From the NCBI RefSeq assembly GCF_008017535.1, contig NZ_VRUA01000017.1, positions 1 through 64,000 of the forward strand: a DNA stretch of 64,000 nucleotides. Direction: 5' to 3'. The notes under the pieces were generated by a model, which ran no database searches, had not been told where the DNA came from, and was given only the letters and a program-made list of their open reading frames with translations. A program made the position numbers and the translations under genes. Shown here in pieces: positions 19,826-46,765 of the stretch (the first letter of the stretch is position 1; every line of letters starts with the position of its first letter). This stretch comes from Ottowia flava. GTDB lineage: Bacteria; Pseudomonadota; Gammaproteobacteria; Burkholderiales; Burkholderiaceae_C.

Positions 19826-21856
19826 ATGGCGAACCCGACGGTCGAATGGCGTGCAGACGGCACGCCGTACAGCCCGCGCTTTGGCGACATCTACCGCAGC
19901 ACCAGCGGCCTGGCGCAGGCGCAAGCGGTGTTCCTTGAAGGCTGCGGCCTGCTGCGCGGGCCAGTGGGCAGCCCGATGGCCGTGGCGCGCCCGCTGTGGG
20001 CCCACGCGCCACGCTGGGCGGTGCTGGAAGCCGGCTTCGGCCTCGGCCTGAACTTTCTGGCCACCTGGCTGGCCTGGCAGAGCGACCCCGAGCGCCCGCA
20101 GCGGCTGTTCTACAGCGCCGTCGAAGCCTTTCCACCCGACGCCACCGACCTGCTGCGCAGCGCCGCGCCTTACCCCGCGCTGCGCCCCTTGGCTGAAGCG
20201 CTGGCCGCCCAGTGGCGCGGCTTGCTGCCGGGCCTGCACCGCCTCAGCCTGAACCAAGGTCGCGTGCAACTGACGCTGGCTGTGGGCGACGTGCGCGCGA
20301 TGCTGGCCGAGCTGAGTGGCGCCTTCGACAGCGTCTACCTCGACGGTTTCGAGCCTGAGCGCAACCCCGACATGTGGGGCCTGCCGGTGATCAAGGCGAT
20401 CGCGCGCCTGGCGCGCCCCGACGCGCGCGCGGCGACCTGGTGCGTGGCCGCGCCGGTGCGCGAGGCGCTCATCACCTGCGGTTTCGAGGTCGAACGCGTG
20501 CGCGGCCCGGCGCCCAAGGGCGAGGTGCTGCGCGCCCGCCTGGCGCCGCGCTGGTCGCCACGCCGGCGCCAGGCACCCGACGCGCCGGTGCAGGTGGCAG
20601 CGCCGGGCCATTGCGTGGTGATCGGCGGCGGCCTGGCCGGGGCGTCAGCGGCCTACAGCCTGACGCAACGCGGCTGGCGCGTCACCGTGCTCGACGCGGC
20701 CCCAACGCCCGCCACCGGGGCATCCGGCCTGCCTGCCGGCGTGGTGGCGCCGCACGTCTCACCCGACGACCGCCCGCTGTCGCGCCTGACCCGCGCTGGC
20801 GCCCGCGCCACCCTGGCGCGGGCCGCCGCACTGCTGCAAGAGGGAGTGGACTTTGGCGCCACCGGCGTGCTGGAGCGCCACAGCCCCGGCGAGCGCCGTC
20901 CGCCCGCCGCCTGGCAAGACGTGGCCGCTGACGGCGCTACCGCACCCGAATCCTGGCCCGACACCGACCCACGCACCCGTGCGCACGCCCAAGCCGCCCA
21001 CGTACCGCTGGACGACACCCAGCGCGCGCTGTGGCACGAACACGCCGGCTGGATTCGTCCGGCGGCGCTGGTGCGCGCCATGCTGGGCGCACCAGGCGTC
21101 GCCTGGCAAGGGGGTCAGGCCGTGGCCAGCCTTCGCCCACACGGCGCGCAATGGCAGGTGCTGGGCGCCGATCGCACCGTGCTGGCCGAGGCCGACCTGG
21201 TCTTCGTCACCGCCGGCTTCGGCTCTCTGGCCCTGCTGCCAGCACGCGGCAACGCGGCGCTGCCCCTGCACGCCCTGCGCGGCCAGGTCGCGTGGGGCCC
21301 CATGCCGGACGACGCCGCCAGCCTGCCGCCCTTTCCCGTCAGCGGCCACGGCAGCCTGATCGCGCACGTGCCTGGCAACGGTGGTCCCATGTGGGTGACC
21401 GGCTCCACCTTCGAGCGCGGTGAAAGCCAGCCACTGCTGCGCCCCGAAGACCACGCCCACAACCGCCAGCGCCTGGCCGAACTGCTGCCCGCCGCCAGCG
21501 CGACGCTGGACGCGCAATGGCCGGACGGCCGCGCCCAGGCATGGGCCGGCGTGCGCGCCACCCTGCCCGATCGCCTGCCGGCGGTCGGCGCGTGGCCGGT
21601 GTCGATGGTGCCGGATTATGAGAAAAATCGGCCTCCAGCCGTACAACCACCTGCGCAAGCAGCTATTGAAACCGCAGCACGCGACACACCGCTCCCCCTC
21701 CACGTGCTGACCGGCCTCGGCGCCCGCGGCCTGACCCTGGCCGTGCTGTGCGGCGAGATCGCCGCCGCCTGGCTGCACGGCGAGCCGCTGCCGGTGGAAG
21801 CCTCACTGGCGCGCAAGCTGCGCGCGGGCCGGTTTGGCGGCACCCCTGCAGGCTGA
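19826..21856 (+). CDS. mnmC: Bifunctional tRNA wobble-uridine enzyme MnmC
   Basis: 676 residues. The N-terminal MnmD methyltransferase domain (about 1-235) has the SAM-binding FGLGLNFLATW. The C-terminal FAD oxidoreductase domain begins near residue 262 with VVIGGGLAGASAAYSL and ends with GLGARGLTLA. Together they complete 5-methylaminomethyl(-2-thio)uridine at tRNA position 34. Residues ~597-616 (ENRPP-type segment, NRPPAVQPPAQAA) are encoded by a family A repeat and replace the variable loop between VPDY and the final FAD-binding strand. The start abuts another repeat and has no visible Shine-Dalgarno sequence. Confidence 0.93.
   Translation: MANPTVEWRADGTPYSPRFGDIYRSTSGLAQAQAVFLEGCGLLRGPVGSPMAVARPLWAHAPRWAVLEAGFGLGLNFLATWLAWQSDPERPQRLFYSAVEAFPPDATDLLRSAAPYPALRPLAEALAAQWRGLLPGLHRLSLNQGRVQLTLAVGDVRAMLAELSGAFDSVYLDGFEPERNPDMWGLPVIKAIARLARPDARAATWCVAAPVREALITCGFEVERVRGPAPKGEVLRARLAPRWSPRRRQAPDAPVQVAAPGHCVVIGGGLAGASAAYSLTQRGWRVTVLDAAPTPATGASGLPAGVVAPHVSPDDRPLSRLTRAGARATLARAAALLQEGVDFGATGVLERHSPGERRPPAAWQDVAADGATAPESWPDTDPRTRAHAQAAHVPLDDTQRALWHEHAGWIRPAALVRAMLGAPGVAWQGGQAVASLRPHGAQWQVLGADRTVLAEADLVFVTAGFGSLALLPARGNAALPLHALRGQVAWGPMPDDAASLPPFPVSGHGSLIAHVPGNGGPMWVTGSTFERGESQPLLRPEDHAHNRQRLAELLPAASATLDAQWPDGRAQAWAGVRATLPDRLPAVGAWPVSMVPDYEKNRPPAVQPPAQAAIETAARDTPLPLHVLTGLGARGLTLAVLCGEIAAAWLHGEPLPVEASLARKLRAGRFGGTPAG
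21617..21672 (-). repeat. Family A repeat inside mnmC (in frame)
   Basis: Near-consensus reverse copy: AAAAATCGGCCTCCAGCC, GTACAACCACCTGCGCAAGC, AGCTATTGAAA. It is translated in frame as NRPPAVQPPAQAAIET within MnmC. Confidence 0.92.
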
Positions 21857-21952
21857 GGCGCGCGGCCGCTTTGGCCCGTCGGTCGGACGCGGCGCGAACG
21901 AAGGCCAGCGGGGCACTTCAGAACACACTCGCCTTCAGATGCGTGCGCAGGC

Positions 21953-21984
21953 GAGAAAAAGAAAAACCACCCCGAAGGGTGGTT
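21953..21984 (-). terminator. Intrinsic terminator of the ABC binding-protein gene
   Basis: On the minus strand AACCACCC, tetraloop TTCG, GGGTGGTT (21965-21984), followed by TTTTTCTTTTTCT. A strong Rho-independent terminator 52 nt after the stop. Confidence 0.92.
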
Positions 21985-22036
21985 GGGCTGACGAGGCTGG
22001 CGACGGCGGTGTTGACACCATCGCCTGGCGCCACGA

Positions 22037-23167
22037 TCAGTTCAGCGGCGTCTTCTTGCCGTCCTTGTAGACGTACAGCGTGATGGCCGCGTTCTTCAGT
22101 TCGCCGTTCGGTTCGAACTGGATGTTGGAAGTCACGCCCTTGTAGTTGGACTCGGCCAGCTTGGGGATGTAGACCTTGGGGTCCCACGAGTTGGCACGCT
22201 TCATGGCGTCGGCCAGCAGCATGGTGGCGTCGTAGGTGTACGGGCTGTAGACCTGGAACTGACCAGGGTACTTGGCGTCGTACTTGGCCTTCCAGGCGGT
22301 GCCACCAGGCATCTTCTGGATCGAGGCGCCGCCTTCGGCGCAGACCACGTTGCCCAGCGTCTTGGCGCCGCCGGACAGCTTGGCGATCTCGGTCGTGCAG
22401 ATGCCGTCACCGCCGAAGTACTTGACGTTGGCCATGCCCAGCTGTTCCATCTGGCGCAGCATCGGGCCGGCCTGGGGGTCCATGCCGCCGAAGAACACGC
22501 CGTCCGGGTTCTTGGACTTGATGGCCGTCAGGATGGCCATGAAGTCGGTGGCCTTGTCGGTGGTGAACTGCTCGTCGACGATCTGGATGCCCTTTTTCTT
22601 GGCCGTGGCCTTGAACACGTCGGCGACGCCCTGGCCGTAGGCCGTGCGGTCGTCGATCACGGCGATCTTCTTTAGCTTGAGCGCGTCGGCGGCGTAGTTG
22701 GCCAGGCCAGCACCCAGCGCCAGGTCGTTGGCGATGATGCGGAAGGTGGTCTTGTAGCCGGGCTTGGTCAGCGCGGGGTTGGTGGCGGCGCCGGTGACGT
22801 GCGGAATGCCGCAGTCGTTGTAAACCTTGGAGGCGGGGATGGTGGTGCCCGAGTTCAGGTGACCGACCACGCCGGCGACCTTGGCGTCGCACAGCTTCTG
22901 TGCGGCGGCGGTGCCCTGCTTGGGATCGGCGGCATCGTCTTCTGCCTGGATTTCCCACTTGATCTTCTTGCCGTTGATCGTGATGTTCTGGGTGTTCAGC
23001 TCTTCAATGGCCATGCGCGAGCCATTCTCGTTGTCCTTGCCGTAGTGCGCCTGGGGGCCGGACACGGGGCCAACGTGACCGATCTTGATCACCTGCTCCT
23101 GGGCCATCACGGCTCCGGCCACCAGGGTCAGCACTGCGGCTGCGGTCAACTTCAGCTTCATCTGCAT
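22037..23167 (-). CDS. Branched-chain amino acid ABC transporter binding protein
   Basis: 376-residue periplasmic binding protein of the LivK/LivJ type (type I fold). A signal peptide ends at AVMA-Q (about residue 22). The mature start QVIKIGHVGPVSGPQAHYGKD and VVGHLNSGTTIPASKVY are typical of leucine/isoleucine/valine binders. GGAGG lies just ahead of the ATG. There are no permease or ATPase genes beside it, so it works as an orphan receptor with components encoded elsewhere, as is common in Burkholderiales. Ligand specificity is not certain. Confidence 0.9.
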   Translation of the reverse strand: MQMKLKLTAAAVLTLVAGAVMAQEQVIKIGHVGPVSGPQAHYGKDNENGSRMAIEELNTQNITINGKKIKWEIQAEDDAADPKQGTAAAQKLCDAKVAGVVGHLNSGTTIPASKVYNDCGIPHVTGAATNPALTKPGYKTTFRIIANDLALGAGLANYAADALKLKKIAVIDDRTAYGQGVADVFKATAKKKGIQIVDEQFTTDKATDFMAILTAIKSKNPDGVFFGGMDPQAGPMLRQMEQLGMANVKYFGGDGICTTEIAKLSGGAKTLGNVVCAEGGASIQKMPGGTAWKAKYDAKYPGQFQVYSPYTYDATMLLADAMKRANSWDPKVYIPKLAESNYKGVTSNIQFEPNGELKNAAITLYVYKDGKKTPLN

Positions 23168-23288
23168 AGAAATACCTCCGAGAAAGGAAATGGGTTGAGA
23201 TGTATGAGTAAGCTCAACGGGCTCGAACGGTATCGCAATTCGTGTGCCACCACATCAGGGAACACGATAGTGTGGTGGCATGCGCAAT

Positions 23289-23672
23289 TTAGGGGTTTCT
23301 CCTGACATCTTCCCCATGCGCACCACGGGCGTGCGCAGTAGCGATGGCATCTCGCACCACTTCGGCCACCGTCTTTTGCACCCGACCATTGAGGCCGAGC
23401 AACTGCTCATGCAGCACACGGCCAATGGCTTCGCTGATGAGCCGATCGAGTTCCGGTCCCAAGAGGGCCAGCAGCGCCTGTGCGTCGGGTTGCGCAGACA
23501 GGGCATCGGCGGCTGACGCCTGTCTGGGCGCTGGCGCCTGCGGCGTATTGGCAGGGACTTCAGCACCCACGACTTCGGTCAAGGTCGGAACGTTGCGCGG
23601 CACGAGGCGCTGCGGCGGGACTTCCTGCTCGGCGCCGGAGGGCTGTTCGGACGGTTGATCTTCCTCAGACAT
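23289..23672 (-). CDS. Conserved hypothetical protein downstream of holC
   Basis: 127 residues from the ATG at 23672. The first half is acidic and Pro/Gln-rich, probably disordered (SEEDQPSEQPSGAEQ). The second half forms an amphipathic helix pair (ALLALLGPELDRLISEAIGR, then VLHEQLLGLNGRVQKTVAEV). It follows holC by only 7 nt and so belongs to the pepA-holC transcript. I do not recognise a function; position suggests a small Burkholderiales-specific protein. The open frame upstream to 23792 overlaps holC and is unlikely to be used. Confidence 0.7.
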   Translation of the reverse strand: MSEEDQPSEQPSGAEQEVPPQRLVPRNVPTLTEVVGAEVPANTPQAPAPRQASAADALSAQPDAQALLALLGPELDRLISEAIGRVLHEQLLGLNGRVQKTVAEVVRDAIATAHARGAHGEDVRRNP

Positions 23673-23679
23673 CTTTCGA

Positions 23680-24108
23680 TTACTCCTTGGCGGCCGCATC
23701 GTGCCGCTTGATCTCATACCCCCTGTCTGCGTAATGCCGCCAGCGCTGGCGCGCATGCGCCCGGCCCGCCTGGTCTGTGCCGACCAGTTCAATCAATCGT
23801 TCAAAGCGCTCGAAGCCAGCGGGCACCGTCTCCCCCAGGTGAACCATGATCTGCGCACCCTCCACCTCTTGAGCGTCGGTGGCCAGCACGACGGGCGTGT
23901 GGGCCAGCGTCTCGGGGGGCGCCGAGGCGCGGGCGTGCGGGATGAAGTCGAGCGCAGAGAACGTCCACAGCGCCGTGTCGAGCGCGTGAATCTGCTCCGC
24001 CGAGCCGACGACGACCGTGCGACCGCCGGTCGCGTACGCCTTGCGCAGCAGTCGACAGGCGTAGCCCAGCCGGTCTGGTACGTTGAAATGGAAGGCCACT
24101 TCGGTCAT
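23680..24108 (-). CDS. holC: DNA polymerase III chi subunit
   Basis: 142-residue HolC. It begins TEVAFHFNVPDRLGYACRLLRKAY, the usual opening, and has the central VVVGSAEQIHALDTALWTF and the C-terminal YEIKRHD. Chi joins the clamp loader (with psi) and binds single-strand-binding protein on the lagging strand. Located 42 nt after pepA on the same strand, the conserved pepA-holC order. Confidence 0.94.
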   Translation of the reverse strand: MTEVAFHFNVPDRLGYACRLLRKAYATGGRTVVVGSAEQIHALDTALWTFSALDFIPHARASAPPETLAHTPVVLATDAQEVEGAQIMVHLGETVPAGFERFERLIELVGTDQAGRAHARQRWRHYADRGYEIKRHDAAAKE

Positions 24109-24150
24109 GGCGGGTCAGCGCGCCGCACGGGCGCTAGATGGCGTCTCAGG

Positions 24151-26818
<2,668 letters not shown>

Positions 26819-26822
<4 letters not shown>

Positions 26823-27925: not shown

Positions 27926-27927
27926 CG

Positions 27928-28311
27928 GTGACCTCTGCAGCCACCCCACGCAGCGGCACCGTGCTGTTCGCCCACGGTTCGCGCGACCCGGCCTGGCGTG
28001 CGCCGATCGAAGCGGTGGCCGCGCGCATGCGCCAGCTCTCGCCCGGCGCGCTGGTGACCTGCGCCTACCTCGAATTCACCGCGCCCGATCTCGCCGCCGC
28101 GGTGCAGGAGCTGTTGGCACAGGGCGCGGCCCGCATCACCGTGTGGCCGATGTTTCTGGGCGCCGGACGCCACGCACGCGAAGACCTGCCCCGTCTCATC
28201 GACCAACTGCGGCAAACCCATCCGGACGTGCCGATGCATCTGCAGGCCGCCATCGCCGAGGACCCGCGGGTGCTGGACGCCATGGCCCGCAGCGCGCTCG
28301 ATTCACCATAG
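27928..28311 (+). CDS. Short CbiX sirohydrochlorin chelatase
   Basis: 127-residue single-domain CbiX/SirB-type protein starting at GTG 27928. The N-terminal FAHGSRDPAW holds the first metal-binding histidine (H16), and LGAGRHAREDLP the second (near residue 80). It would insert cobalt or iron into sirohydrochlorin for cobalamin or sirohaem. It lies next to cysB, and sirohaem serves sulfite reductase, so a sulfur-assimilation link is reasonable. Placement 3 nt after lptG suggests read-through transcription. Confidence 0.87.
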   Translation: MTSAATPRSGTVLFAHGSRDPAWRAPIEAVAARMRQLSPGALVTCAYLEFTAPDLAAAVQELLAQGAARITVWPMFLGAGRHAREDLPRLIDQLRQTHPDVPMHLQAAIAEDPRVLDAMARSALDSP

Positions 28312-28329
28312 CGCGCCGGCCTGTGGCGT

Positions 28330-28375: not shown

Positions 28376-28382
28376 AAACACC

Positions 28383-29324: not shown

Positions 29325-29326
29325 GC

Positions 29327-29440: not shown

Positions 29441-29495
29441 GGGTATGCGGCGCTGACGTGCACTGCGAGCGTCGGTGAGTTGCCAACGCCCTCAT

Positions 29496-29562
29496 GCTCT
29501 TAATTTTCTAGCTGGCCGCGCAAGTCCCACTAGGGATAGACGGCGATTTCTCTTGTAAAACA
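29496..29562 (+). repeat. Family A repeat, moderately diverged
   Basis: TTAATTTTCTAGCTGG left end, then CCGCGCAAGTCCCACTAGGG and CGGCGATTTCTCTTGTAAAA. It resembles the lpdA 3' copy in core sequence and lies 24 nt before the aminotransferase start. Confidence 0.7.
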
Positions 29563-30753: not shown

Positions 30754-30769
30754 GCTGTGGCTGCGAAAC

Positions 30770-30833
30770 GCTATAACTTGAATAGCTGGTTGCGCCGGTG
30801 GCTGTAGGGCCAGCGGGTCATTTCTCTTGAATT
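30770..30833 (+). repeat. Family A dispersed repeat
   Basis: GCTATAACTTGAATAGCTGG, then TTGCGCCGGTGGCTGTAGGG, CCAGCGGGTCATTT and CTCTTGAA. It lies between the aminotransferase and the EVE-domain gene. Confidence 0.9.
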
Positions 30834-31537: not shown

Positions 31538-32473
31538 ATGCCCAAAACCAGCGAATCCACCGACGAAGACGACACCCCGCCCCGCGCCCCGGCGCGTGTG
31601 GTGTGGAAGGGCGCGATCAGCTTCGGGCTGGTTCACATCCCGGTGGCGCTGTACACCGCGACCACCAGCGGCGGCGTCGATTTCGACTGGCTGGACCGCC
31701 GCACCATGGAGCCGGTGGGCTACAAGCGCATCAACAAGAAGACCGGCAAGGAGATTGCGGCGGCCGACATCGTCAAAGGCGTGGAGGTGGAAGACGGCCA
31801 GTACGTGGTGCTGAGCGCAGACGAGATCAAGGCGGCCTTTCCCAAGACCACGCAGACGATCGAGATCGAAAGCTTCATCCACGCCAGCGAGATCCCCTTC
31901 ACCTACCTGGAACGGCCGTACTACCTGGCGCCCATCAACCGCGGCGAGAAGGTGTACGCGCTGCTGCGCGAGGCGCTGCTGGAGACCGAGCGCGTCGGCG
32001 TGGCCCGCGTGGTGATCCAGACCAAGCAACACCTGGCCGTGCTGGTGCCCAGTGGCCCGGCGCTGATCCTGAACCTGCTGCGCTGGGGCGGCGAGATCCG
32101 CTCTTTTGAAGCCCTGAAGCTGCCGCCGGCGGGCGTGAAGGCGGCCGGCTTGAAGGAAGGCGAGCTGAAGATGGCGCGCCAGCTGATCGAGGAGATGACC
32201 GCGCCCTGGGACGCGGACGACTTCCGCGATTCCTTCCGCGACGAGATCATGCGGCTGGTGCGCCAGAAGGCCGAGTCGGGCGAAGCGAAGAGCGTCGAAA
32301 AGGTGGCGCCCACCGGCGAAGGCGGCAGCGCCAAACCGGGCGCCGAGATCATCGACCTGACCGAATTGCTCAAGCGCAGCCTGCAGGGCGGCGCCAAGGA
32401 CAAGGACGACGATGGCGAGTCGAAAGCCACCCCCGCCAAGGCCAAGCCGCGCGCGCCGCGCAAGCGCGCCTGA
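31538..32473 (+). CDS. ku: Non-homologous end-joining protein Ku
   Basis: 311-residue bacterial Ku. The core begins ARVVWKGAISFGLVHIPVALYTA and continues through DRRTMEPVGYKRINKKTGKEI to KMARQLIEEMTAPWDADDF. The homodimer rings DNA ends and recruits LigD. The C-terminal ~50 residues are Lys/Ala/Pro-rich (KATPAKAKPRAPRKRA), the extension that contacts DNA and LigD in other Ku proteins. The ligD start lies inside this extension, so the two genes overlap by 62 nt. Confidence 0.96.
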   Translation: MPKTSESTDEDDTPPRAPARVVWKGAISFGLVHIPVALYTATTSGGVDFDWLDRRTMEPVGYKRINKKTGKEIAAADIVKGVEVEDGQYVVLSADEIKAAFPKTTQTIEIESFIHASEIPFTYLERPYYLAPINRGEKVYALLREALLETERVGVARVVIQTKQHLAVLVPSGPALILNLLRWGGEIRSFEALKLPPAGVKAAGLKEGELKMARQLIEEMTAPWDADDFRDSFRDEIMRLVRQKAESGEAKSVEKVAPTGEGGSAKPGAEIIDLTELLKRSLQGGAKDKDDDGESKATPAKAKPRAPRKRA

Positions 32474-35195
32474 GGCGGCCAAGCCCTCGCCGGCGCAGCG
32501 CCCAAGCCGCGCACCCGTCCTTGCGGATTTCAAGGAAAATCCGGACTCCGCCTTACAACCATCTGCGCAGACAGCTACCAAATCAGAAGCGAATGGAGCG
32601 CCGGACGCGCTGCGCGCCTACCGCGCCAAACGCAACTTTGCACGCACGCCCGAGCCCGACGGCAGCGCGTCCGTGGCGCCTGGCGCGGGCGACCTGCGCT
32701 ACGTCATCCAGAAGCACTGGGCCAGCCACCTGCACTACGACCTGCGCCTGGAATGGGGCGGCACCATGCACAGCTGGGCCGTGCCCAAGGGCCCGAGCCT
32801 CGACCCGGCCGACAAGCGCCTGGCCGTGCAAGTCGAAGACCACCCCATCGCCTACAACGACTTCGAAGGCCAGATCCCGCCCGGCCAGTACGGCAGTGGC
32901 CGCGTCATCGTGTGGGACCGCGGCACCTGGACGCCGGCGGGCGACCCGGCGCAAGCCTTTGCGAAGGGCCACCTCAAGATCGACCTGCACGGCGTCAAGC
33001 TGCGCGGGCGCTGGGCGCTGGTGCGGTTGAAGGACGCGCAGGCGCGGCAGCCGCCGTGGCTGCTGGTCAAGGACCGCGACGCCGAAGCGCGCCGCGCCAG
33101 CGAGTACGACGTCACCGCCGCGCTGCCGGATTCGGTCGGGCCGTCAGGCAACGCGGTGCCAAGCGCGACCCAGGCCGTCAATGCGCCACGGTCGGCTGGC
33201 GCAGGCGCGGCAAAGGCCTCGGCGAAGGCCGCGGCGCCCAAGTCGACCGGCCGCCAACGCAGCGCACCACAGCCCCCTGCGGCGGCGCTGCCCGACACCT
33301 TGTCCCCCCAACTCGCCCAACTGGCCGACGCGCCGCCGCCCGACCCCGCCGACTGGCAGTGGGAGATGAAGTTTGACGGCTACCGCCTGCTGGCGCGCGT
33401 GGACGCCGCGGGCGCGGTGCGCCTGCTCACCCGCAACGGCCTGGACTGGACGGCGCGCATGCCGGCGCTGGCGCAAGCCGTCGCCGGGCTGAATCTGCCC
33501 GGCAGCTGGCTGGACGGCGAGGTGGTTATGCCGAACGACGACGGTGTGCCCGATTTCGCCGCGCTGCAGCGCGCGTTCGACGAGCGACGGGCGGGCGATT
33601 TGGTGCTCTACCTGTTCGACGCGCCTTGGCTGTGCGGCGTCGACCAGACCGCGCTGCCGCTGACCGACCGCCGCGCCGCGCTGGAAGCCGCCCTGCCCAA
33701 GCTGCCCGGCGCGGGCACGGTCCGCCTGTCCGCCGTGCTGCCCGGCGACCCCGCCAGCCTGCTGGCCAGCGCCTGCCGCATGGGGCTGGAAGGGCTGATC
33801 GGCAAGCGGCTGGGCGCGCCCTACCGCGCCGGCCGCTCGGCCGACTGGATCAAGCTGAAGTGCCAGCAGAGCGACGAATTCGTCATCGCGGGCTTCACCG
33901 GCGGCCAGGGCGCGCGCAGCGAACTGGGCGCGCTGGTGCTGGCCGCGCACGACGCGCAGGGCCGGCTGCGCTGGGCGGGCAACGTGGGCAGCGGGTTTTC
34001 GGGGGCGACGCTGGCGGACCTGCAGCGCCGGTTGACGGCCCCGCAGCAGGCAGACAACCCGCTGGCGCCCGGCGACAAGGTGCCGGGCCGCGTGCAGTGG
34101 GTCGCGCCCCAGCTGGTGGCCCAGGTGCGCCACGCGGGGCTGACGCCGCAGGGCCATGTGCGGCAGGCCGTATTCCTGGGCTTGCGCGAAGACAAGGCGG
34201 CGCGGGACGTCGAATTCCCAGGCGTTTCAAAGTCAAATCGACCCACAGCCCTACAACCACCTGCTCAGGCAGCTACCAAACAAGGAGCAAAAATGCCCGC
34301 CCCCCCAACCATCGACGGCCAGCGGCTGACCCACCCCGAGCGCGTCATCGACCCCGCCAGCGGCACCACCAAGCTCGCCCTGGCGCGCTACTACGCCACC
34401 GTGGCGCCACTGATCCAGCCGCACCTGACCGACCGCCCCGTCGCCCTGCTGCGCGCGCCGGACGGGCTGGGCGGCGAGCTGTTCTTCCAGAAGCACCTGC
34501 AGGGTCGCCCGATCGCCAGTGTGACCCAGTTGCCGGCCAAGCTGGACCCCGGCCACGCGCCGCTGCTGGCGATCGACAGCGCCGCCGCGCTGCTGGCGGT
34601 GGTGCAGTTCAATACCGTGGAGTTGCACACCTGGAACGCCGCCGCCGACAAGATCGAGCGACCCGACCGCTTCGTGCTCGACCTCGACCCCGGCGAAGGC
34701 GTGGCCTGGGCGCAGGTGCAAGAGGGCGCCCAGCTGGCGCGCACGTTGCTGACCGAGCTGGGCCTGGTGCCGTTTTTGAAAACCAGCGGCGGCAAGGGCT
34801 TGCACGTGGTCGTGCCGATCAAGCGCCTACAGGGTTGGGACGCGGTCAAGGACTTCAGCCGCGCGCTGGCCGAACACCTGGCGCGCCTGATGCCGGACCG
34901 CTTCACCGCCGTCAGCGGGCCCAAGAACCGCGTCGGCCGCATCTACCCGGATTACCTGCGCAACGGGCGCGGGGCCACCACGGTGGCGGCCTGGTCGGCG
35001 CGCGCGCGACCGGGCATGGGCGTGTCGGTGCCGATCGGCTGGGACGAGCTGGCGCGCGTGGGCGGCGGCGCGCACTGGACGCTGGGCAACATCGAACAGC
35101 GCCTGCGCACCGGCAACGCGCCGTGGGACGGCTGGGGCGAATCTGCGCGCGCGATCGGCGCCGCGGTGAAGACGCTGGCGAAAGCGTCCCGATAG
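32412..35195 (+). CDS. ligD: Multidomain DNA ligase D
   Basis: 927 residues in the order phosphoesterase-ligase-polymerase. The phosphoesterase domain (~60-225) has QKHWASHLHYDLRLEW with H102, H108 and D110. The ATP-dependent ligase (~295-600) has nucleophile K320 in EMKFDGYR. The polymerase/primase (~635-925) has catalytic D757 and D759 in LDLDPG. With Ku it repairs double-strand breaks by NHEJ. Two family A repeats are translated in frame: residues ~38-58 just before the phosphoesterase domain, and ~604-626 in the ligase-polymerase linker. The start overlaps the 3' end of ku. Confidence 0.96.
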   Translation: MASRKPPPPRPSRARRASAPEAAKPSPAQRPSRAPVLADFKENPDSALQPSAQTATKSEANGAPDALRAYRAKRNFARTPEPDGSASVAPGAGDLRYVIQKHWASHLHYDLRLEWGGTMHSWAVPKGPSLDPADKRLAVQVEDHPIAYNDFEGQIPPGQYGSGRVIVWDRGTWTPAGDPAQAFAKGHLKIDLHGVKLRGRWALVRLKDAQARQPPWLLVKDRDAEARRASEYDVTAALPDSVGPSGNAVPSATQAVNAPRSAGAGAAKASAKAAAPKSTGRQRSAPQPPAAALPDTLSPQLAQLADAPPPDPADWQWEMKFDGYRLLARVDAAGAVRLLTRNGLDWTARMPALAQAVAGLNLPGSWLDGEVVMPNDDGVPDFAALQRAFDERRAGDLVLYLFDAPWLCGVDQTALPLTDRRAALEAALPKLPGAGTVRLSAVLPGDPASLLASACRMGLEGLIGKRLGAPYRAGRSADWIKLKCQQSDEFVIAGFTGGQGARSELGALVLAAHDAQGRLRWAGNVGSGFSGATLADLQRRLTAPQQADNPLAPGDKVPGRVQWVAPQLVAQVRHAGLTPQGHVRQAVFLGLREDKAARDVEFPGVSKSNRPTALQPPAQAATKQGAKMPAPPTIDGQRLTHPERVIDPASGTTKLALARYYATVAPLIQPHLTDRPVALLRAPDGLGGELFFQKHLQGRPIASVTQLPAKLDPGHAPLLAIDSAAALLAVVQFNTVELHTWNAAADKIERPDRFVLDLDPGEGVAWAQVQEGAQLARTLLTELGLVPFLKTSGGKGLHVVVPIKRLQGWDAVKDFSRALAEHLARLMPDRFTAVSGPKNRVGRIYPDYLRNGRGATTVAAWSARARPGMGVSVPIGWDELARVGGGAHWTLGNIEQRLRTGNAPWDGWGESARAIGAAVKTLAKASR
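32527..32583 (-). repeat. Family A repeat inside ligD (N-terminal)
   Basis: Reverse copy: TTTCAAGGAAAATCCGGAC, GCCTTACAACCATCTGCGCA, GACAGCTACC. It is translated in frame as ENPDSALQPSAQTATK ahead of the phosphoesterase domain. Confidence 0.9.
34226..34282 (-). repeat. Family A repeat inside ligD (ligase-polymerase linker)
   Basis: Reverse near-consensus copy: TTTCAAAGTCAAATCGACCC, GCCCTACAACCACCTGCTCA, GGCAGCTACC. It is translated as SNRPTALQPPAQAATK exactly between two catalytic domains. Confidence 0.93.
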
Positions 35196-37311: not shown

Positions 37312-37762
37312 CCATCCACCGCGCAGCTGTTTGAAGTGAAATGTGCTGCCTGCGCGCTCTGGTCCTGCGCGGGCAGCTATTTTTTTTATAGCGTTTGCGT
37401 AGCGCACCAAATCCGTTCTTGAAGCCGCGAACGGTCGTCACCGCTCAACGTATTCGGCGTGCAGTGGCTCAACACTGCAGCGCTGCCGCGCGCCACGCCT
37501 ACCAGGCTGCGCCCCCGGCGTCCTTGATCTGCTGCAGGGTTCGCGCGTTTTTTCTATACTGCCCCCACTTGGTCTGAAAAGACGAGAGCGTGGCGGGCGG
37601 CTGACGACATACCCGCAAGCGGCTTGGCCGCGGTGGTCGTCGCAACCGTTATCACCTGCTTGCTGAGGCCTGTGCGCGTTGCGCCAGGCTGGAATAGCCA
37701 TCCTGCAACGCGCCTCTTCAGCGCCCGCTGTCGCCCGCACGTTGCTGTCAGGAGCCAAAGCA
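37312..37762. other. Intergenic region before the molybdenum hydroxylase
   Basis: 451 nt holding a degenerate family A repeat near its left end. CTATACT at 37554-37560 could be a -10 element but I see no good -35 partner. No convincing reading frame apart from the displaced Tat leader that follows. Confidence 0.5.
37336..37392 (-). repeat. Family A repeat, diverged reverse copy
   Basis: Left-end inverted repeat AGCTAT / ATAGCG around a T-run (37375-37392), with GTGCTGCCTGCGCGC on the other side. The core is replaced by a GC hairpin (GCCTGCGCG / CGCGGGC). Confidence 0.55.
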
Positions 37763-37884: not shown

Positions 37885-37941
37885 GACGCCCAGTGGATCA
37901 GCGGCAACAAGCTCAACTACCGGCGTGACGGGCTGGCCAAG

Positions 37942-40566: not shown

Positions 40567-41135
40567 TGTCCGACCGAATCCAATTCTCGGCCACGATCAA
40601 CCGCAAGCCCGTGGGACCGATCGACCTGCCAAAGGACTTGATGATGATCGAGTTCCTGCAGGAATACGCCGGCCTGAACGGCACGCGGCTCGGCTGCGGC
40701 CAGGGCGTGTGCCGTGCCTGCACCATCATCGTCGACGATCCGCAAAAAGGCGCGACCACGGTGCCGGCGTGCATCACCGGCGTGGCGTGGCTGAACGGCA
40801 AGACCATCCGCACCGTGGAAGGCATCGCCACGGTGGACGACAAGGGCGTCGTCAAGCCCTCGGCCGTGCAACAGGCCTTTCTCACGCACTTCGCGTTTCA
40901 GTGCGGCTACTGCACGCCGGGCTTCGTCAACTCCGCCACGGCCCTGGTCGAACGGCTGGCGAAGAACCCCGTGCCGGCCGACGATGTCGAGAAGGTGATC
41001 GAACAGCAGCTGGAGCCCCATATCTGCCGCTGCACCGGCTACGTGCGCTACTACGCCGCCGTGCGCGACGTCATCCTTGGCACCCCTGGCCTCACCACCG
41101 GACAACGCACGAATAAGGTGGAACAACATGGCTAA
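40566..41135 (+). CDS. 2Fe-2S subunit of molybdenum hydroxylase
   Basis: 189-residue small subunit. The plant-ferredoxin-type cluster ligands are C44, C49, C52 and C69; the second, helical cluster domain has C113, C116 and C154, C156 (QCGYC and ICRC). It transfers electrons from the molybdenum centre. Its ATG overlaps the large-subunit stop (TGATG), and it ends inside the start of the cytochrome gene, so the three are coupled. No Tat leader, so it would be co-exported with the large subunit. Confidence 0.93.
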   Translation: MSDRIQFSATINRKPVGPIDLPKDLMMIEFLQEYAGLNGTRLGCGQGVCRACTIIVDDPQKGATTVPACITGVAWLNGKTIRTVEGIATVDDKGVVKPSAVQQAFLTHFAFQCGYCTPGFVNSATALVERLAKNPVPADDVEKVIEQQLEPHICRCTGYVRYYAAVRDVILGTPGLTTGQRTNKVEQHG

Positions 41136-42417
41136 GCGCAAATGGCTTCGCGGCCTGGCCCTCCTGCTGCTCGTTGCGCTGCTCGTGGTCGGCGGTATGT
41201 ACCTGTACGGCAGCTCCTCCGGCACCGTGCCCCCGGCCACGGTGGACTTCGCCAAGCTCAGCCCCGAGCAGGAAAAAACGCTGTACGCGCGCGGTGAGCA
41301 GGTCTTTCGCGCCGGCGACTGCGCCGCCTGCCACAGCTCGCCCCAGACGGGCGCCGAGCTGGCTGGCGGCGTGCCCATGGTCACACCGATGGGCACGCTG
41401 TACGGCACCAACATCTCACCGTCCAAGCAACACGGCATCGGCAACTGGACGGCGGACGACCTGTACCGCGCCATCGCCAGCGGTGTCGCGCCGAGCCGCA
41501 AGCTGCTGTACCCCGCCATGCCCTACACCAGCTACCACCAGGTGACCCGTGGCGACGTCGACGCGCTGTGGGTGTGGCTGATGAAGCAGCCGGCCGTCGA
41601 GGTGGCCAACCGCGCCAACGCGATGCAGTTTCCGTTCGACGTGCGCCCGGCCGTCGCGCTGTGGAACGCGGTCGAGCGCCCCGCTGCCAAGCCGTTTGAT
41701 GCATCAACCGACGCGCTGTCGCGCGGGAAGTACCTGGTCGACGTGATGGGCCACTGCGCCGAATGCCACAGCCCGCGCACGCTGACCTTTGCACTGGACA
41801 AGTCCCGGTACCTGGAGGGCAGCATCATCGAAGGCGCCTACGCGCCCGCCATCACGCCGGCGGCGCTTTCGGGCCGCGGCTGGACGCGCGACGACCTGGT
41901 GCGCTTCTTCCGCACCGGCCTGTCGCCCCAGGGCGTGATGACCTTCCGCATGGCGTCCGTGCTCGACCATTCCACCTCGCACATGCCCGAAGAGGACCTG
42001 CGCGCCATGGCCGCCTACCTGACGCAAGACCAGGCCATGCCCGGACCCAAGCCAAAGGCGCCGCAAGGCGAGGTGAATGTGAAGGGCGAGGCCATCTACG
42101 TCGGCCTTTGCGCGGGCTGCCACGGCGTGCAAGGCCAGGGACAGCCGCAAAGCTCGGTGCCATTGAACACCAACACCACGGCCATGTTCCCCACCCCGAT
42201 CAACCTGATCCGCGTCACCCGCGAAGGCCTGCAAGAGCGCGACCTGCCGCACGGCGGCCGCATGCAAAGCATGCCCGGCTTTGCCGACAAACTGAGCGAT
42301 CAGGACATGGCCGACCTGGTGAACTACCTGCGCCAGACCTGGGGCGGCCAACCCGGCGACGTGACGCCCGCGCAGGTGGCGGACCTGGTCAAGACGATCG
42401 AACACGGCGACCAGTAA
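41128..42417 (+). CDS. Tri-haem cytochrome c subunit
   Basis: 429 residues from ATG 41128. One N-terminal membrane anchor (LALLLLVALLVVGGMYLYG) and three CxxCH haem sites (C65-H69, C210-H214, C328-H332) match the cytochrome subunit of alcohol/aldehyde dehydrogenases and of Tat-exported molybdenum hydroxylases. It would pass electrons from the periplasmic enzyme to the respiratory chain. It overlaps the 2Fe-2S gene by 8 nt. Confidence 0.92.
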   Translation: MAKRKWLRGLALLLLVALLVVGGMYLYGSSSGTVPPATVDFAKLSPEQEKTLYARGEQVFRAGDCAACHSSPQTGAELAGGVPMVTPMGTLYGTNISPSKQHGIGNWTADDLYRAIASGVAPSRKLLYPAMPYTSYHQVTRGDVDALWVWLMKQPAVEVANRANAMQFPFDVRPAVALWNAVERPAAKPFDASTDALSRGKYLVDVMGHCAECHSPRTLTFALDKSRYLEGSIIEGAYAPAITPAALSGRGWTRDDLVRFFRTGLSPQGVMTFRMASVLDHSTSHMPEEDLRAMAAYLTQDQAMPGPKPKAPQGEVNVKGEAIYVGLCAGCHGVQGQGQPQSSVPLNTNTTAMFPTPINLIRVTREGLQERDLPHGGRMQSMPGFADKLSDQDMADLVNYLRQTWGGQPGDVTPAQVADLVKTIEHGDQ

Positions 42418-42729
42418 TGTCGTGATCACGGCCGACGCGCTTGCATCCACCTGGGGGTGCCGATCCCGCACCTCCAGGTTGGTTGGCGGTGTCGACGCAG
42501 CCTTTGAAAATGGTGTGATCCGTCATGAAAACGCCGATCGCCCCTACGAACATTTGCGCAAACAGCTATTGTTTCAATAGTGACTCCGCCTCAGAGCCGA
42601 CCGCTTCTTGCGATGGCGCCACGAACGTCTGCCAGCGCGTCGGGCGCTGCCACGGCTGCTTTTGAAAAGCGTATGGAGCGTTCTGGCAGGACACCGCCCC
42701 GCTCCCGTTGGCGATCCCCCCAAGAGCGC
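42418..42729. other. Intergenic region after the hydroxylase operon
   Basis: 312 nt between the convergent cytochrome gene and the small 42,730 gene. It holds one family A repeat (42,525-42,582). The rest shows no convincing gene or terminator. Confidence 0.5.
42525..42582 (-). repeat. Family A dispersed repeat, reverse copy
   Basis: GAAAACGCCGATCG, CCCCTACGAACATTTGCGCA, AACAGCTATTGTTTCAATAG. The right inverted repeat GCTATTGTTTCAATAG is well kept. Confidence 0.8.
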
Positions 42730-43068
42730 CTATGCGGCGCTGTCCGCGTGATCGTCGAACACTGACCACCCCAGAAAATCAGCAATCCGCCCAGCCAGCG
42801 ATTCGTACCAAAGCGCATTCTCCGTGTCCGAGCACACCAGTTCCACCACATTGACACGCGTCAGCGCCTCTTCGTTGGAAGCATAGCCACCGGTCGCGTC
42901 ACATGACGCCAGGATCACGCAGACCCAGGGTTGTCCTTCGGTCGACGCAAAGTGCGCTGGCGCGGTCTGGCGAAGCTCCGGCAAGGCGGCGAGAAACGCC
43001 ACCAGTGGCGCCGCCGGGGCGTGGTGTGAATAGTCAGGCGCTCCACGCAGGGTCAGGTACCAAGTCAC
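42730..43068 (-). CDS. Small hypothetical protein
   Basis: 112 residues from GTG 43068, which has GAGG upstream; the frame also opens at 43125. It has YLTLRGAPDYS, an Ala/Leu-rich helix (PLVAFLAALPELRQ), EGQPWVCVILASCD and NVVELVCSDTENALWYESLAGRIADFL. The compact alpha/beta character resembles small orphan proteins found beside toxin-immunity or unknown loci, but I do not recognise it. No partner gene is adjacent. Confidence 0.65.
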   Translation of the reverse strand: MTWYLTLRGAPDYSHHAPAAPLVAFLAALPELRQTAPAHFASTEGQPWVCVILASCDATGGYASNEEALTRVNVVELVCSDTENALWYESLAGRIADFLGWSVFDDHADSAA

Positions 43069-43138
43069 GCGAGCCTCATCGACGCGATGACGAGCACGAG
43101 CCACGAAAGCACAGCCCCATCGCACTCCCTCATCACAA

Positions 43139-43175
43139 TAAAAAAGCCGCGCAGCCCTAGAGGGACTTGCGCGGC
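43139..43175 (-). terminator. Terminator of the aceEF-lpdA operon, built from a repeat
   Basis: On the minus strand GCCGCGCA (43175-43168) pairs with TGCGCGGC (43153-43146), followed by TTTTTT. The stem is made of a family A repeat core. It ends the pyruvate dehydrogenase transcript. Confidence 0.9.
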
Positions 43176-43195
43176 CAGCTAGCTATTCAATAGCA
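43146..43195 (-). repeat. Family A repeat acting as a terminator
   Basis: Reverse copy with AGCTAGCTATTCAATAGC end touching the lpdA stop codon and a palindromic core (GCCGCGC, CCCTAGAGGG, GCGCGGC). Confidence 0.8.
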
Positions 43196-45061
43196 TTACT
43201 TCTTCTGCGGCGGCAAATCCGTGCAACTGCCGTGCGCCACTTCCGCGGCCATGCCGATGCTTTCGCCCAGCGTAGGGTGCGGGTGGATGGTCTTGCCGAT
43301 GTCGACCGCGTCGGCGCCCATCTCGATGGCCAGGGCGATCTCGCCGATCATGTCGCCGGCGTGGGTGCCGACGATGCCACCGCCCAGGATCTTGCCGTGG
43401 CCGTGCGCTTCAGGGCTGTCGTCGAACAGCAGCTTCGTGAAGCCCTCGTCGCGCCCGTTGGCGATGGCGCGGCCGGACGCGCTCCAGGGGAACAAGCCCT
43501 TCTTGACCTTGATGCCCTGCGCCTTGGCCTGATCTTCGGTCAGGCCGACCCAGGCCACTTCGGGGTCGGTGTAGGCCACGCTCGGGATCACGCGCGCGTT
43601 GAAGGCGCTACGCGCCAGCGCTTCGTCGCCCTTCTGCTCACCCGCGATGACTTCCGCGGCGACGTGCGCTTCGTGCACCGCCTTGTGCGCCAGCATCGGT
43701 TGGCCGACGATGTCGCCGATGGCGAAGATGTGCGGCACGTTGGTGCGCATCTGGATGTCGACGTCGATGAAGCCGCGGTCGGTGACGGCGACACCGGCCT
43801 TGTCGGCGCCGATCTTCTTGCCGTTGGGGCTGCGGCCAACGGCCTGCAGGACCAGGTCGTAGGTCTGCGGCGCGGGTGCGCCCTCGCCTTCAAACGTGAC
43901 TTCAATGCCCGCGTCGGTGTCCTTGGCGCCCACCGTCTTGGTCTTGAGCATGATGTGGTCAAAGCGCGGCGCGTTCATCTTCTGCCAGACCTTGACCAGG
44001 TCGCGGTCGGCGCCCTGCATCAAGCCGTCCAGCATTTCGACCACGTCGAGGCGCGCACCCAAGGTCGAATACACCGTACCCATTTCCAGGCCGATGATGC
44101 CGCCGCCCAGCACCAGCATGCGCTTGGGCACGCTCTTGAGCGCCAACGCGCCGGTCGAATCGACCACGCGCGGGTCGTCGGGCATGAAGGGCAGGCGCAC
44201 GGCCTGGCTGCCGGCGGCGATGATGCAGTGCTTGAACTGCACGACCTTCTTCTTGCCGGTCTTTTGCTGGCCGTCGCCCGAAGTCTCTTCGACCTCCAGG
44301 TGGTGCGTTCCGGCAAAGCTGCCGTAGCCGCGCAGCACGGTCACTTTGCGCATCTTCGCCATCGCGCCCAAGCCACCGGTTAGCTTGGCGATGACCTTTT
44401 CCTTGTGGGTGCGCAGCTTGTCGATGTCGAGCTGGGGCGCGCCGCCGTAGTCAATGCCCAGCGCCGCCAGGTGGCTGACCTCGTCCATCACCGCGGCCAC
44501 GTGCAGCAGCGCCTTGGACGGGATGCAGCCCACGTTCAGGCACACGCCACCCAACGTGGCGTAGCGCTCGACCAGCACCACGTTCAGGCCCAGATCGGCC
44601 GCGCGGAACGCCGCGGAGTAGCCGCCAGGCCCGCCGCCCAGCACCAACACGTCGCAGTCCAGATCGCTCTGGCCGCTGAAGGCCACGCCGGGTGCCGCAC
44701 TGGCCTGAGGCGACGCTGAGGGCGCTGCATTTTGTGTAGCTGGCTGCGCTTGCTGGGCGGGCGCTGGGGCCGAATTTGGCTTGGAAGTTTCTGCCGGCGC
44801 CGATGCGGCCGCAGCGCCCTGCTCTGCCGCGTCGAGCGAGAGGATCACCGAGCCTTCGTTGATCTTGTCGCCGATCTTCACCTTCAGATCTTTGACGACG
44901 CCCGCGTGGCTCGACGGAATCTCCATCGACGCCTTGTCGGACTCCACGGTGATCAGCGACTGCTCGGCCGCGACGGTGTCGCCCGGCTTGACCAGCAGTT
45001 CAATGACGGCGACGTCCTTGAAGTCGCCAATGTCGGGGACCTTGATATCAATGGTGGCCAT
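43196..45061 (-). CDS. lpdA: Dihydrolipoyl dehydrogenase with lipoyl domain
   Basis: 621-residue E3. The N-terminal lipoyl domain carries lipoyl-lysine K43 in ESDKASMEI. The FAD motif is GGGPGG near 143-148, the redox disulfide is C174/C179 (GGVCLNVGC), and the C-terminal HPHPTLGE supplies the catalytic His. It reoxidises dihydrolipoyl groups of the complex, making NADH. Residues ~91-111 of the Pro/Ala linker between lipoyl and FAD domains come from an in-frame family A repeat. Last gene of the aceE-aceF-lpdA operon, ending in a repeat-derived terminator. Confidence 0.96.
   Translation of the reverse strand: MATIDIKVPDIGDFKDVAVIELLVKPGDTVAAEQSLITVESDKASMEIPSSHAGVVKDLKVKIGDKINEGSVILSLDAAEQGAAAASAPAETSKPNSAPAPAQQAQPATQNAAPSASPQASAAPGVAFSGQSDLDCDVLVLGGGPGGYSAAFRAADLGLNVVLVERYATLGGVCLNVGCIPSKALLHVAAVMDEVSHLAALGIDYGGAPQLDIDKLRTHKEKVIAKLTGGLGAMAKMRKVTVLRGYGSFAGTHHLEVEETSGDGQQKTGKKKVVQFKHCIIAAGSQAVRLPFMPDDPRVVDSTGALALKSVPKRMLVLGGGIIGLEMGTVYSTLGARLDVVEMLDGLMQGADRDLVKVWQKMNAPRFDHIMLKTKTVGAKDTDAGIEVTFEGEGAPAPQTYDLVLQAVGRSPNGKKIGADKAGVAVTDRGFIDVDIQMRTNVPHIFAIGDIVGQPMLAHKAVHEAHVAAEVIAGEQKGDEALARSAFNARVIPSVAYTDPEVAWVGLTEDQAKAQGIKVKKGLFPWSASGRAIANGRDEGFTKLLFDDSPEAHGHGKILGGGIVGTHAGDMIGEIALAIEMGADAVDIGKTIHPHPTLGESIGMAAEVAHGSCTDLPPQKK
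44728..44790 (+). repeat. Family A repeat inside lpdA linker
   Basis: Forward copy (antisense to lpdA): TGTAGCTGGCTGCGC, TGCTGGGCGGGCGCTGGGGC, CGAATTTGGCTTGGAA. It is translated as PNSAPAPAQQAQPATQ in the interdomain linker. Confidence 0.85.
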
Positions 45062-45076
45062 GGATGCGGTCTCCCC

Positions 45077-46765
45077 TCACAGCAGGATGCGGCGGTAGTC
45101 CGCCAGCACCTTGCCCAGGTAGGCGTTGAAGCGCGCCGCGGCGGCGCCGTCGATGACGCGGTGGTCGTAGCTGAGCGAGAGCGGCAGCATCAGGCGCGGC
45201 ACGAAAGCCTTGCCGTCCCATTCGGGCTTCATCGCGCTCTTGGACAGGCCGAGGATGGCCACTTCGGGGGCGTTGATGATGGGCGTGAAATGGGTGCCGC
45301 CAATGCCGCCCAGCGAGCTGATCGACATGCAGCCGCCCTGCATGTCGGCCACGCCGAGCTTGCCGTCGCGCGCCTTCTTGGCGAGTTCACCCATCTCCTG
45401 GCTGATCTGGATGATGCCTTTCTTGTCGGCGTCTTTCAGCACCGGCACCACCAGGCCGTTGGGTGTGTCCGCCGCAAAGCCGATGTTGTAGTACTGCTTG
45501 TAGACGAGCGTGTCGCCGTCCAGGCTGGTGTTGAACTCGGGGAACTTCTTCAGCGCCGCGACCACCGCCTTGATGACGAAGGCGAGCATGGTCACCTTGA
45601 CATCGCTCTTGGCCTTGGCGGCCTCGGCATTGGTCTGCACGCGGAAGGCTTCCAGGTCGGTGATGTCGGCTTCGTCGTTGTTGGTGACGTGCGGGATCAT
45701 CACCCAGTTGCGCGACAGGTTGGCGCCGCTGATCTTCTTGATGCGCGACAGCTCCTTGCGCTCGGTCGGGCCGAACTTGGCGAAGTCGACCTTCGGCCAC
45801 GGCAGCAGGTCCAGGCCCAAGCCGGAGCCACCGGCCGGTGCCTTGGCGGCCTGTGCCTTGGTCTGCACGGCGCCGGTCATCACCTGCTTGGTGAAGGCAT
45901 GCACGTCCTCGGCGGTGATACGGCCCTTGTCGCCGCTGCCTTTGACTTCTTCCAGCGGCACGCCCAGCTCGCGCGCGAACTTGCGCACGCTGGGGCTGGC
46001 GTAGGGCAGCTGGCCCGTGGGCGCGGCCGCGGGGTTGTGCACTGGCATGGACGCCGGTGCAGCCACGGCCGGTGTTGGCGCCGCGGCGGCCGGCGCAGGT
46101 GCGCTGGCGGCAGGGGCTGCAGCAGGCGCCGGGGCTGGCGATGCAGCCGCAGGCGCTTCGGCGCCCGTGCCTTCCACGATGGCCAGCAGGTCGCCGATGT
46201 TGAGCTTGTCGCCCAGCTTGACCTTCAATTCCTTCACCACGCCGGCGGCGCTGGAGGGGATTTCCATCGATGCCTTGTCGGATTCGACGGTGATCAGGCT
46301 CTGCTCCAGCTTGACGCTGTCGCCGGGCTGGACGAAGACCTCGATCACGGCGACGTCCTTGAAGTCGCCGATGTCGGGCACGCGCACCTCGATCGGGCCG
46401 CTGGCCGCCGGTGCGGCGGCCGGTGCGGGCGCAGCAGCGGGCGCAGCAGCGGGCGCAGCCGCTTCTTTTTTGGTAGCTTCTTGCGCAGGAACAGCCTGGT
46501 CTGGCGCCTGTTTTGGCTCAGATCCTTCGGCCGCTTCCAGCACCACGATCACGCTGCCTTGCTTGACCTTGTCGCCCAGCTTGACCTTGAGCTCCTTGAC
46601 CACGCCCGCGTGACTGGACGGGATTTCCATCGACGCCTTGTCGGACTCGACGGTGACCAGGCTTTGTTCGACCTTGACGGTGTCGCCGGGCTTGACCAGC
46701 ACCTCGATCACCGCCACCTCATCGAAATCGCCGATGTCGGGGACTTTGACTTCCACCATTGCCAT
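45077..46765 (-). CDS. aceF: Pyruvate dehydrogenase E2 acetyltransferase
   Basis: 562 residues with two lipoyl domains (K43 in ESDKASMEI; the second at ~118-195 with the same ESDKASMEI), a peripheral subunit-binding domain (~255-290, [15 protein letters not shown] and [13 protein letters not shown]), and the catalytic domain with [13 protein letters not shown] near the C-terminus. It passes acetyl groups to CoA. The linker after the first lipoyl domain (~82-101) is a translated family A repeat. It lies between aceE (16-nt gap) and lpdA (15-nt gap). Confidence 0.96.
46465..46522 (+). repeat. Family A repeat inside aceF linker
   Basis: Forward copy (antisense to aceF): TTTTTTGGTAGCTTC, TTGCGCAGGAACAGCCTGG, CTGGCGCCTGTTTTGGCT. 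It is translated as [16 protein letters not shown] in the linker after lipoyl domain 1. Confidence 0.85.

Follow-up and report, generated by a model that had tools for sequence, protein, structure and literature searches.

The described systems closest to the element reported here are the DNA uptake sequences (DUS) of the Neisseriaceae and the uptake signal sequences (USS) of the Pasteurellaceae, the Rickettsia palindromic elements (RPE), and the repetitive extragenic palindromic (REP) sequences with REP doublets forming hairpins (REPIN) and the REP-associated tyrosine transposase (RAYT). USS have a short core within a range of about 9 to 12 nt, and a drive model accounts for uptake sequences. 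The element considered in this work is a motif of about 66 bp, dispersed in the genome of Ottowia flava and present in a stretch of 64,000 nucleotides (contig NZ_VRUA01000017.1, positions 1 to 64,000), called the window below.

The element resembles DUS and USS in its hundreds to thousands of copies, its species dialects, its use of both orientations and an orientation bias inside genes; in the parts of the papers available to us, dialects are documented for DUS, described as short 10-mers (PMC3630211), and one orientation of uptake sequences is the commoner in reading frames (PMC2346458). It differs from them in its size, about 66 bp and 59 bits as compared to a 10-12-mer, which counts against our preferred reading, in having its copies mostly outside genes, and in combining conserved arms with a switching core; here a role in uptake is putative. 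With the RPE, which the available portion of PMC10969869 describes as inserted elements of about 150 bp, it shares the translation of a repeat in frame in unrelated housekeeping proteins. Judged by these descriptions it is set apart from the RPE by a copy in PurK which changes by substitution alone and by species-specific cores at shared sites. REP sequences and REPINs are, as far as the accessible part of PMC8049555 goes, likewise short imperfect palindromes, mostly extragenic, in vertically persistent populations; unlike them the present element has no hairpin covariation, no transposase was found in 4 of 16 genomes rich in it, and in the closest pair of genomes its arms are inherited by site and its core homogenised. 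No description of the motif was found in the open-access literature, as judged by titles and the openings of abstracts; similar repeats are presumably present in Acidovorax-type genomes.

The reading we prefer, tentatively and at somewhat less than an even chance, is that of a large genome-wide DNA recognition motif, similar to an uptake signal and under molecular drive, and not simply of an inserted linker.

Structure and abundance of the motif

The genome of the window (G000) was sampled as the window plus 60 stretches of 20 kb, in total 1264 kb or 31% of 4.12 Mb. A copy was defined as a match to the hidden Markov model (HMM) of its own genome with at least 18 bits over more than 40 positions, lower scores being left out. 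By this definition 354 copies were present (about 280 per Mb), with none in the reversed control, from which about 1000 or more places are estimated genome-wide. A first extended model had given 246 copies of at least 20 bits in the same 1264 kb, and nothing reaching 10 bits in the reversed sequence. Models built on half of the copies recovered 325 of the 351 gapless copies and 61 of the 70 coding ones. In two congeners, G146 and G015, of which 200 kb each were sampled with models built by arm-anchored extraction of copies, 51 and 59 copies were found, again with none in the reversed controls. The further analyses used the gapless sets only, leaving out three copies of G000 and one of G015 with indels (351 and 58 gapless copies). 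Four dialect models detected no copy (best score 10.4) in 200 kb of G225, an element-poor congener of lower GC content (58%). There was no global strand bias in G000 (195 forward, 183 reverse).

The motif of G000 has the consensus TTt.aAG..AAATcgGcCtccaGCCCTAcA.CcAcCTGCGCaggCAGCTAt..AaT..atAGCa. It is composed of an AT-rich left arm (TTT..AAG..AAAT) followed by GGCC, a species-specific core of the central 18 nt or so, flanked by GC(G/C)C...GCGC, and a right arm (GCAGCTAT..AAT..ATAGCA). The inner tract of the left arm is either an A-run or a T-run and seldom mixed (27 mixed tracts observed, 124 expected), which suggests that DNA shape may be what is read. Neighbouring columns are linked. Distant columns are linked nearly as in shuffled columns (0.0181 bits vs 0.0159 shuffled in G000, 0.0738 vs 0.0728 in G146, 0.0722 vs 0.0729 in G015), and thus there is no sign of subfamilies among the copies of these three genomes. 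Covariation of the kind expected from a hairpin was absent in all three, the pairing between the arms of the core being close to the expectation from column composition even where the core is nearly palindromic.

Conserved sites and changing cores

Synteny links the window to both G146 and G015. At mappable sites an equally oriented element is present in G146 in 21 of 24 cases (none in three), and in G015 in 14 of 17 (opposite orientation in two, none in one); at two of the three sites lacking a copy a similar sub-threshold sequence aligns without gaps. All 11 sites comparable between G146 and G015 agree in orientation, and reverse mapping gave 22 of 24 and 10 of 14. Exact boundaries of insertions are not resolvable, the intergenic DNA being too diverged among the compared genomes. 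In twenty orthologous pairs of G000 and G146 the identity of the arms is 0.678, as compared to a mean of 0.547 for shuffled pairs (maximum of 2000, 0.615); that of the cores is 0.539, close to the shuffled value of 0.520 (maximum 0.572), and core identity within the genomes is 0.627 and 0.611. The arms are therefore clearly inherited with the site only in this closest pair, and the core tracks a genome-wide dialect.

By its core alone a copy could be assigned to its own genome in 269 of 351 cases for G000, 34 of 51 for G146 and 32 of 58 for G015. Assignment was poor in four further genomes (G200, 7/22; G223, 5/21; G072, 7/18; G120, 3/15), as is expected, for these and for G015, if one dialect is common to all five. 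A nearly palindromic core close to GCGCTTG-N5-CAAGCGC is shared by G015, G200, G223 and by G072 and G120, which belong to two other genera; on this comparison the cores of G000 and G146 are the derived ones. The G000 core, allowing at most two mismatches, occurs 263 times in G000 and 0 to 2 times, the control level, in each of the other 199 genomes of the family sample. The MnmC peptide reads NRPPAVQPPAQAAIETAA in G000, SNPPPAQQPPAPAAITSAA in G146 and KKPALALDHQARAAINLKA in G015. Since the core follows the genome-wide version of each species, the linkers of MnmC, LigD, LpdA and AceF change in concert. The MnmC of G015 has a second copy on the opposite strand (37.8 bits, G015 C1 ~2453014-2453071, region r015 33014-33071), not seen in the MnmC of the window or of G146.

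These data bear on the possibility that a transposase of the RAYT type mobilises or duplicates the motif as a REPIN-like repeat, fresh copies taking the place of older ones. Its imperfect palindrome and its mostly extragenic copies are in line with this, and so is the single Y1 (RAYT-like) gene detected in G000 (L097 1464-2227), whose stop codon is directly followed by a motif. Such an origin is nonetheless improbable: covariation of the arms and long-range linkage are absent, the closest pair keeps ortholog identity in the arms and not in the cores, and the PurK copy is without length change. With respect to the enzyme, no match to PF01797 (E<=0.001) was found in the 4 rich congeners out of 16 mentioned above, two of them 99% complete, and Y1 transposase matches are present in 9 of 13 poor congeners. 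A RAYT as driver was rejected, there being no association of Y1 transposase with motif richness over the 16 rich and 13 poor congeners. As a separate observation, G015 has 20 PF01797 matches, several identical in score and length and some split, and looks rich in IS200-type copies.

Coding copies and their proteins

Genes in G000 were called with a home-made caller based on codon usage, and a copy was taken as coding when at least 60 nt of gene flanked it on both sides, which applied to 70 of the 351 gapless copies. Coding copies prefer the frames which the motif leaves open and which avoid cysteine. With the 203 intergenic copies as reference and only stop codons considered, the Pro/Ala/Gln frame is used 25 times (19.5 expected), the opposite-strand Ala/Asp/Gly/Ser/Arg frame (xSVAARADGSRAEGQ) 21 times (21.2), the rarely open frames of the QPYNHLRxQLS and LPAQVVVGLEA types 10 (4.6) and 7 times (3.1), a Cys-rich frame 5 times (16.4) and the remaining frame twice (5.1). 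None of 20000 draws from a uniform use of frames was as extreme, and the departure from the stop-codon expectation has p=0.0006. An earlier count on 34 coding copies with the first model (12, 14, 4, 2, 2, 0), whose frame labels follow a different model start, is superseded by these figures. The samples of G146 and G015 are small, with 10 coding copies each, of which 6 and 3 use the Pro/Ala/Gln frame. The opposite-strand frame encodes 5 cysteines in its 21 coding copies and 169 in 124 open intergenic copies, and the Cys-rich frame none in 5 coding copies and 122 in 96 open intergenic ones. Stop codons account for most of the frame bias and avoidance of cysteine for much of the remainder; selection works on the protein after the fact.

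An earlier note on this DNA had started from the five copies in mnmC, ligD (two), lpdA and aceF, and their common orientation, common frame and peptides are as it gave them. Its proposal that only the Pro/Ala/Gln frame is used does not extend to the genome, where this frame accounts for 25 of 70. That all three frames of the strand are often open is correct for the core; when the element is taken in full, it is one frame on each strand that most commonly stays open (114 and 124 of the 203 intergenic copies, as compared to 96, 30, 27 and 18 for the other four). Five out of five at a share of 25/70 has a chance of about 0.6%, a value to be read with the pattern having been picked after the fact and in too small a sample. 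Selection, which the note had suggested, is borne out in so far as frame use is non-random and cysteine is avoided, the Pro/Ala/Gln frame itself being only slightly above expectation; genic copies are unequal across frames, with two preferred frames, one on each strand, and not a single one.

The lpdA and aceF copies are degenerate in the window (the first extended model gives 8.4 and 13.9 bits); their G146 orthologues score 44.7 and 49.0 bits with the model of that genome. The first ligD copy lies upstream of the called start of ligD. As G146 has an element at the matching place and orientation, where its reading frame is open in the same frame (by eye), this copy is probably an N-terminal tail of LigD.

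In PurK the element falls in a conserved part of the protein, and its region aligns without gaps to the three best-matching solved PurK sequences and among 20 of 23 congeners, the three others being left out since the match was absent or only distant. The motif (at least 18 bits) is present in 12 of 13 motif-rich genomes (29.8-50.0 bits) and 3 of 7 poor ones, whose scores are 30.3, 22.6, 21.7, 14.4, 9.7, 3.7 and 3.7; this gradation suggests decay once the system was lost. The exception among the rich genomes is G200 (L184), in which the copy is missing (5.8 bits) at unchanged length. In these alignments the PurK copy is gained or lost by substitution alone. GC content at third positions is 0.24-0.52 within the motif (12 motif-bearing rich genomes) and 0.70-0.95 outside it (all 20), and Ile-Ala is encoded by ATA GCA in 14 of 20 genomes and by ATC GC(C/G) in G207, G222 and G225 (counted by eye).

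The earlier note had also proposed an element suited to act as a ready-made linker, which corresponds to an RPE-like selfish element inserted in frame. This fits mnmC: among 17 genomes of other genera (15 motif-rich and 2 poor by choice, one row not covering the site), 16 lack the insert and have a loop some 27 residues shorter, so that the motif came there with a gain in length in this genus. Five other sites have 7-18 extra residues as compared to distant homologues, and most element-poor congeners have shorter loops in MnmC and in a carboxyltransferase. As a general origin insertion is improbable, considering that the PurK copy arises or decays free of indels among the 20 congeners, that the loop of E. 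coli MnmC is just 6 residues shorter, and that orthologous sites carry species-specific cores, with both orientations in use. Of 19 congener loci other than that of the window, 10 have the MnmC insert. The carboxyltransferase site, for which 7 of 23 genomes with a paralogue or partial match were left out, carries the motif in 8 of 9 rich genomes and in none of the 7 poor ones, and its loop varies in length. Length gains accompany the motif at some sites, where insertion may have taken place as the MnmC loop suggests, and are not required. At one further protein with a coding copy the site did not align to the distant homologue.

In the CCA-adding enzyme (L049 12590-13885) an arm of the motif falls on codons of DLTINAIA. 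Because this stretch aligns to solved CCA-adding enzymes, part of the element makes use of conserved coding sequence.

Placement, distribution and possible drivers

Most sites of the motif are intergenic or close to the end of a gene. Considering gaps of at least 40 nt, it is carried by 71 of the 133 between convergent genes, 155 of the 479 between co-directional and 19 of the 153 between divergent genes, and in co-directional gaps its midpoint has a median of 50 nt past the upstream stop codon. This placement would suit a transcription terminator or another RNA element of the 3' end. We consider this the least probable of the explanations, since the two orientations are nearly equal in co-directional gaps (86 vs 72), pairing covariation is absent, copies inside genes must be read through, and the dialects are left unexplained. 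A spacing of the copies that seemed more regular than expected at random (coefficient of variation 0.79, dispersion of counts 0.74) was rejected as a property of the motif, as 7% and 18% of 300 gene-gap simulations were equally even. The number of copies is lower at low GC (rho 0.59 over 60 stretches; a mean of 1.33 copies in 3 low-GC stretches and 5.67 in the other 57). One 20-kb stretch of 61% GC with ring-hydroxylase and IS66 genes (L063) has none.

The arm pattern GCGCNNGCAGCTATC matches at least 30 times in 16 of 29 congeners and at most 9 times in 13. By its gene content and its relatives the genome of the window is placed in the Comamonadaceae. In the family sample the pattern is patchy, with at least one match in 88 of 200 genomes; one or two matches are no more than the reversed control gives. 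In a tree of 19 MnmC loci (L115 left out) the rich and poor states require three changes. A single 55-base query of the motif had no match in the phage collection. A copy on a Diaphorobacter plasmid scores 49.8 bits with the G072 model.

Plasmid R751 (L243, NC_001735.4) carries a nearly full-length copy at 1494-1549 (35.7 bits, G015 model), located in a class 1 integron, within a cassette that is annotated DUF1010 and adjoins dfrB3; 77 plasmid records match the motif query, and the DUF1010 label is found on 16 of the 20 matches listed. The copy fits a Comamonadaceae origin of the cassette; such an origin is proposed for dfrB genes in the part of PMC11662351 available to us.

Molecular drive through sequence-selective uptake would account together for largely fixed sites, a core which follows dialects, nearly independent columns, substitution in place and loss in some lineages. 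A putative machinery would recognise the motif as double-stranded DNA and favour matching copies, so that all sites would drift together. The likeliest candidate would be a selective uptake of DNA combined with homologous recombination, in the manner of uptake signal sequences, and the Pro/Ala/Gln peptide would be a by-product tolerated by proteins, above all in linkers.

Several findings weigh against this reading. Inheritance of the arms is not shown beyond the closest pair: the identity between G000 and G015 (12 pairs, 0.573) is within the shuffled range (mean 0.520, maximum 0.594), and that between G146 and G015 (10 pairs) is 0.547 as compared to 0.531. The preference for convergent gaps is also compatible with a 3'-end function, only a fifth of the copies (70/351) are well inside genes, and the spacing is no more even than the gene gaps dictate. 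ComEC is present in 26 of 29 congeners, rich and poor alike, and weak ComEA-like matches, none above the family cut-off, in 25 of 29, again rich and poor. To the MnmC loop are added the extra residues as compared to the best distant homologue in the carboxyltransferase (7), RlmD (8), the CCA-adding enzyme (9), YihE (12) and RlmJ (18), all counted by eye. Competence genes were rejected as a predictor of the motif, neither ComEC nor the ComEA-like matches separating rich from poor congeners; the 3 congeners without ComEC are motif-poor and have incomplete genomes (62-81%).

The motif may instead be the binding site of a chromosome-organising or other genome-wide DNA-binding protein, with ordinary selection keeping about 1000 sites matched to a specificity that shifted between species. 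This is unlikely on balance, and it is the main rival of the drive reading: a large split motif, A-run and T-run tracts, a near-dyad core without strand pairing, largely orthologous sites and the near-total loss in some congeners all agree with it. Selection alone would have to change about 1000 sites together, the motif overrides codon bias within coding DNA, and no candidate protein is at hand, none having been searched for.

A wider proposal, which we regard as rather doubtful, is that part of the Comamonadaceae-like family may have a previously undescribed self-recognition system. It would consist of the two-armed motif of about 66 bp at some 1000 conserved addresses, with a central word switchable genome-wide within a single lineage, and recognition of the DNA sequence would thereby rewrite parts of unrelated proteins in concert; as its putative recogniser one would expect a novel protein that evolves fast and that several congeners have lost.

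Copies of the motif in the window, with scores of the HMM and corresponding elements in G146 and G015
Location	Positions	Strand	Score (bits)	Peptide or remarks
mnmC, coding	21615..21684	+	49.7 (own-genome HMM)	NRPPAVQPPAQAAIETAA; orthologous in G146, G015
ligD copy 1, N-terminal end of ligD / between gene 31538-32473 and ligD	32527..32596	+	41.3	ENPDSALQPSAQTATKS
ligD copy 2, between ligase C-terminal and primase-polymerase domains	34225..34294	+	30.3	NRPTALQPPAQAATK; orthologous in G146
lpdA, linker after lipoyl domain	44718..44787	-	24.3	KPNSAPAPAQQAQPATQ; orthologous in G146, G015
aceF, linker after first lipoyl domain	46455..46524	-	18.7	orthologous in G146 (49.0 bits), G015 (28.2 bits)
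Intergenic	770..839	-	32.5	place and orientation shared with G146, G015
Intergenic	4191..4260	-	50.4	place shared with G146, G015
Intergenic	6870..6939	-	27.4	place shared with G146, G015
Intergenic, between convergent genes	8429..8498	-	46.6	place shared with G146, G015
Intergenic, weak	10221..10290	+	20.6	G015 mapped place: only opposite-orientation element
Intergenic	11172..11241	-	48.2	place shared with G146
Intergenic	12593..12662	-	43.0	element between same genes in G146, G015
Intergenic	12844..12913	-	32.7	second element between same genes also in G146
Just upstream of mnmC	19759..19828	+	41.2	place shared with G146, G015
Intergenic	29490..29559	-	39.6	place shared with G146, G015
Intergenic	30764..30833	-	46.2	place shared with G146
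Intergenic	37329..37398	+	33.5	
Intergenic	42518..42587	+	31.2	
3' end of lpdA	43131..43200	+	39.0	
Intergenic	52864..52933	-	31.2	place shared with G146, G015
Intergenic	53827..53896	-	29.3	G146 mapped place: none; G015: opposite orientation
Gene end	56697..56766	-	35.9	
Intergenic	58674..58743	-	28.4	place shared with G146
Between genes	60719..60788	+	40.3	

Fixed dispersed sites together with a genome-wide change of the core allow the concerted evolution of a bacterial genome to be read from a natural record. A force acting on DNA alters the sequences of proteins (PurK, MnmC, LigD, LpdA and AceF), in PurK without any insertion. The motif may also act as a watermark of the family, as with the copy in the class 1 integron cassette of R751. 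If it is truly an uptake signal, it would be of a new type, in a family for which the literature search found none, and its dialects would predict the partners of DNA exchange.

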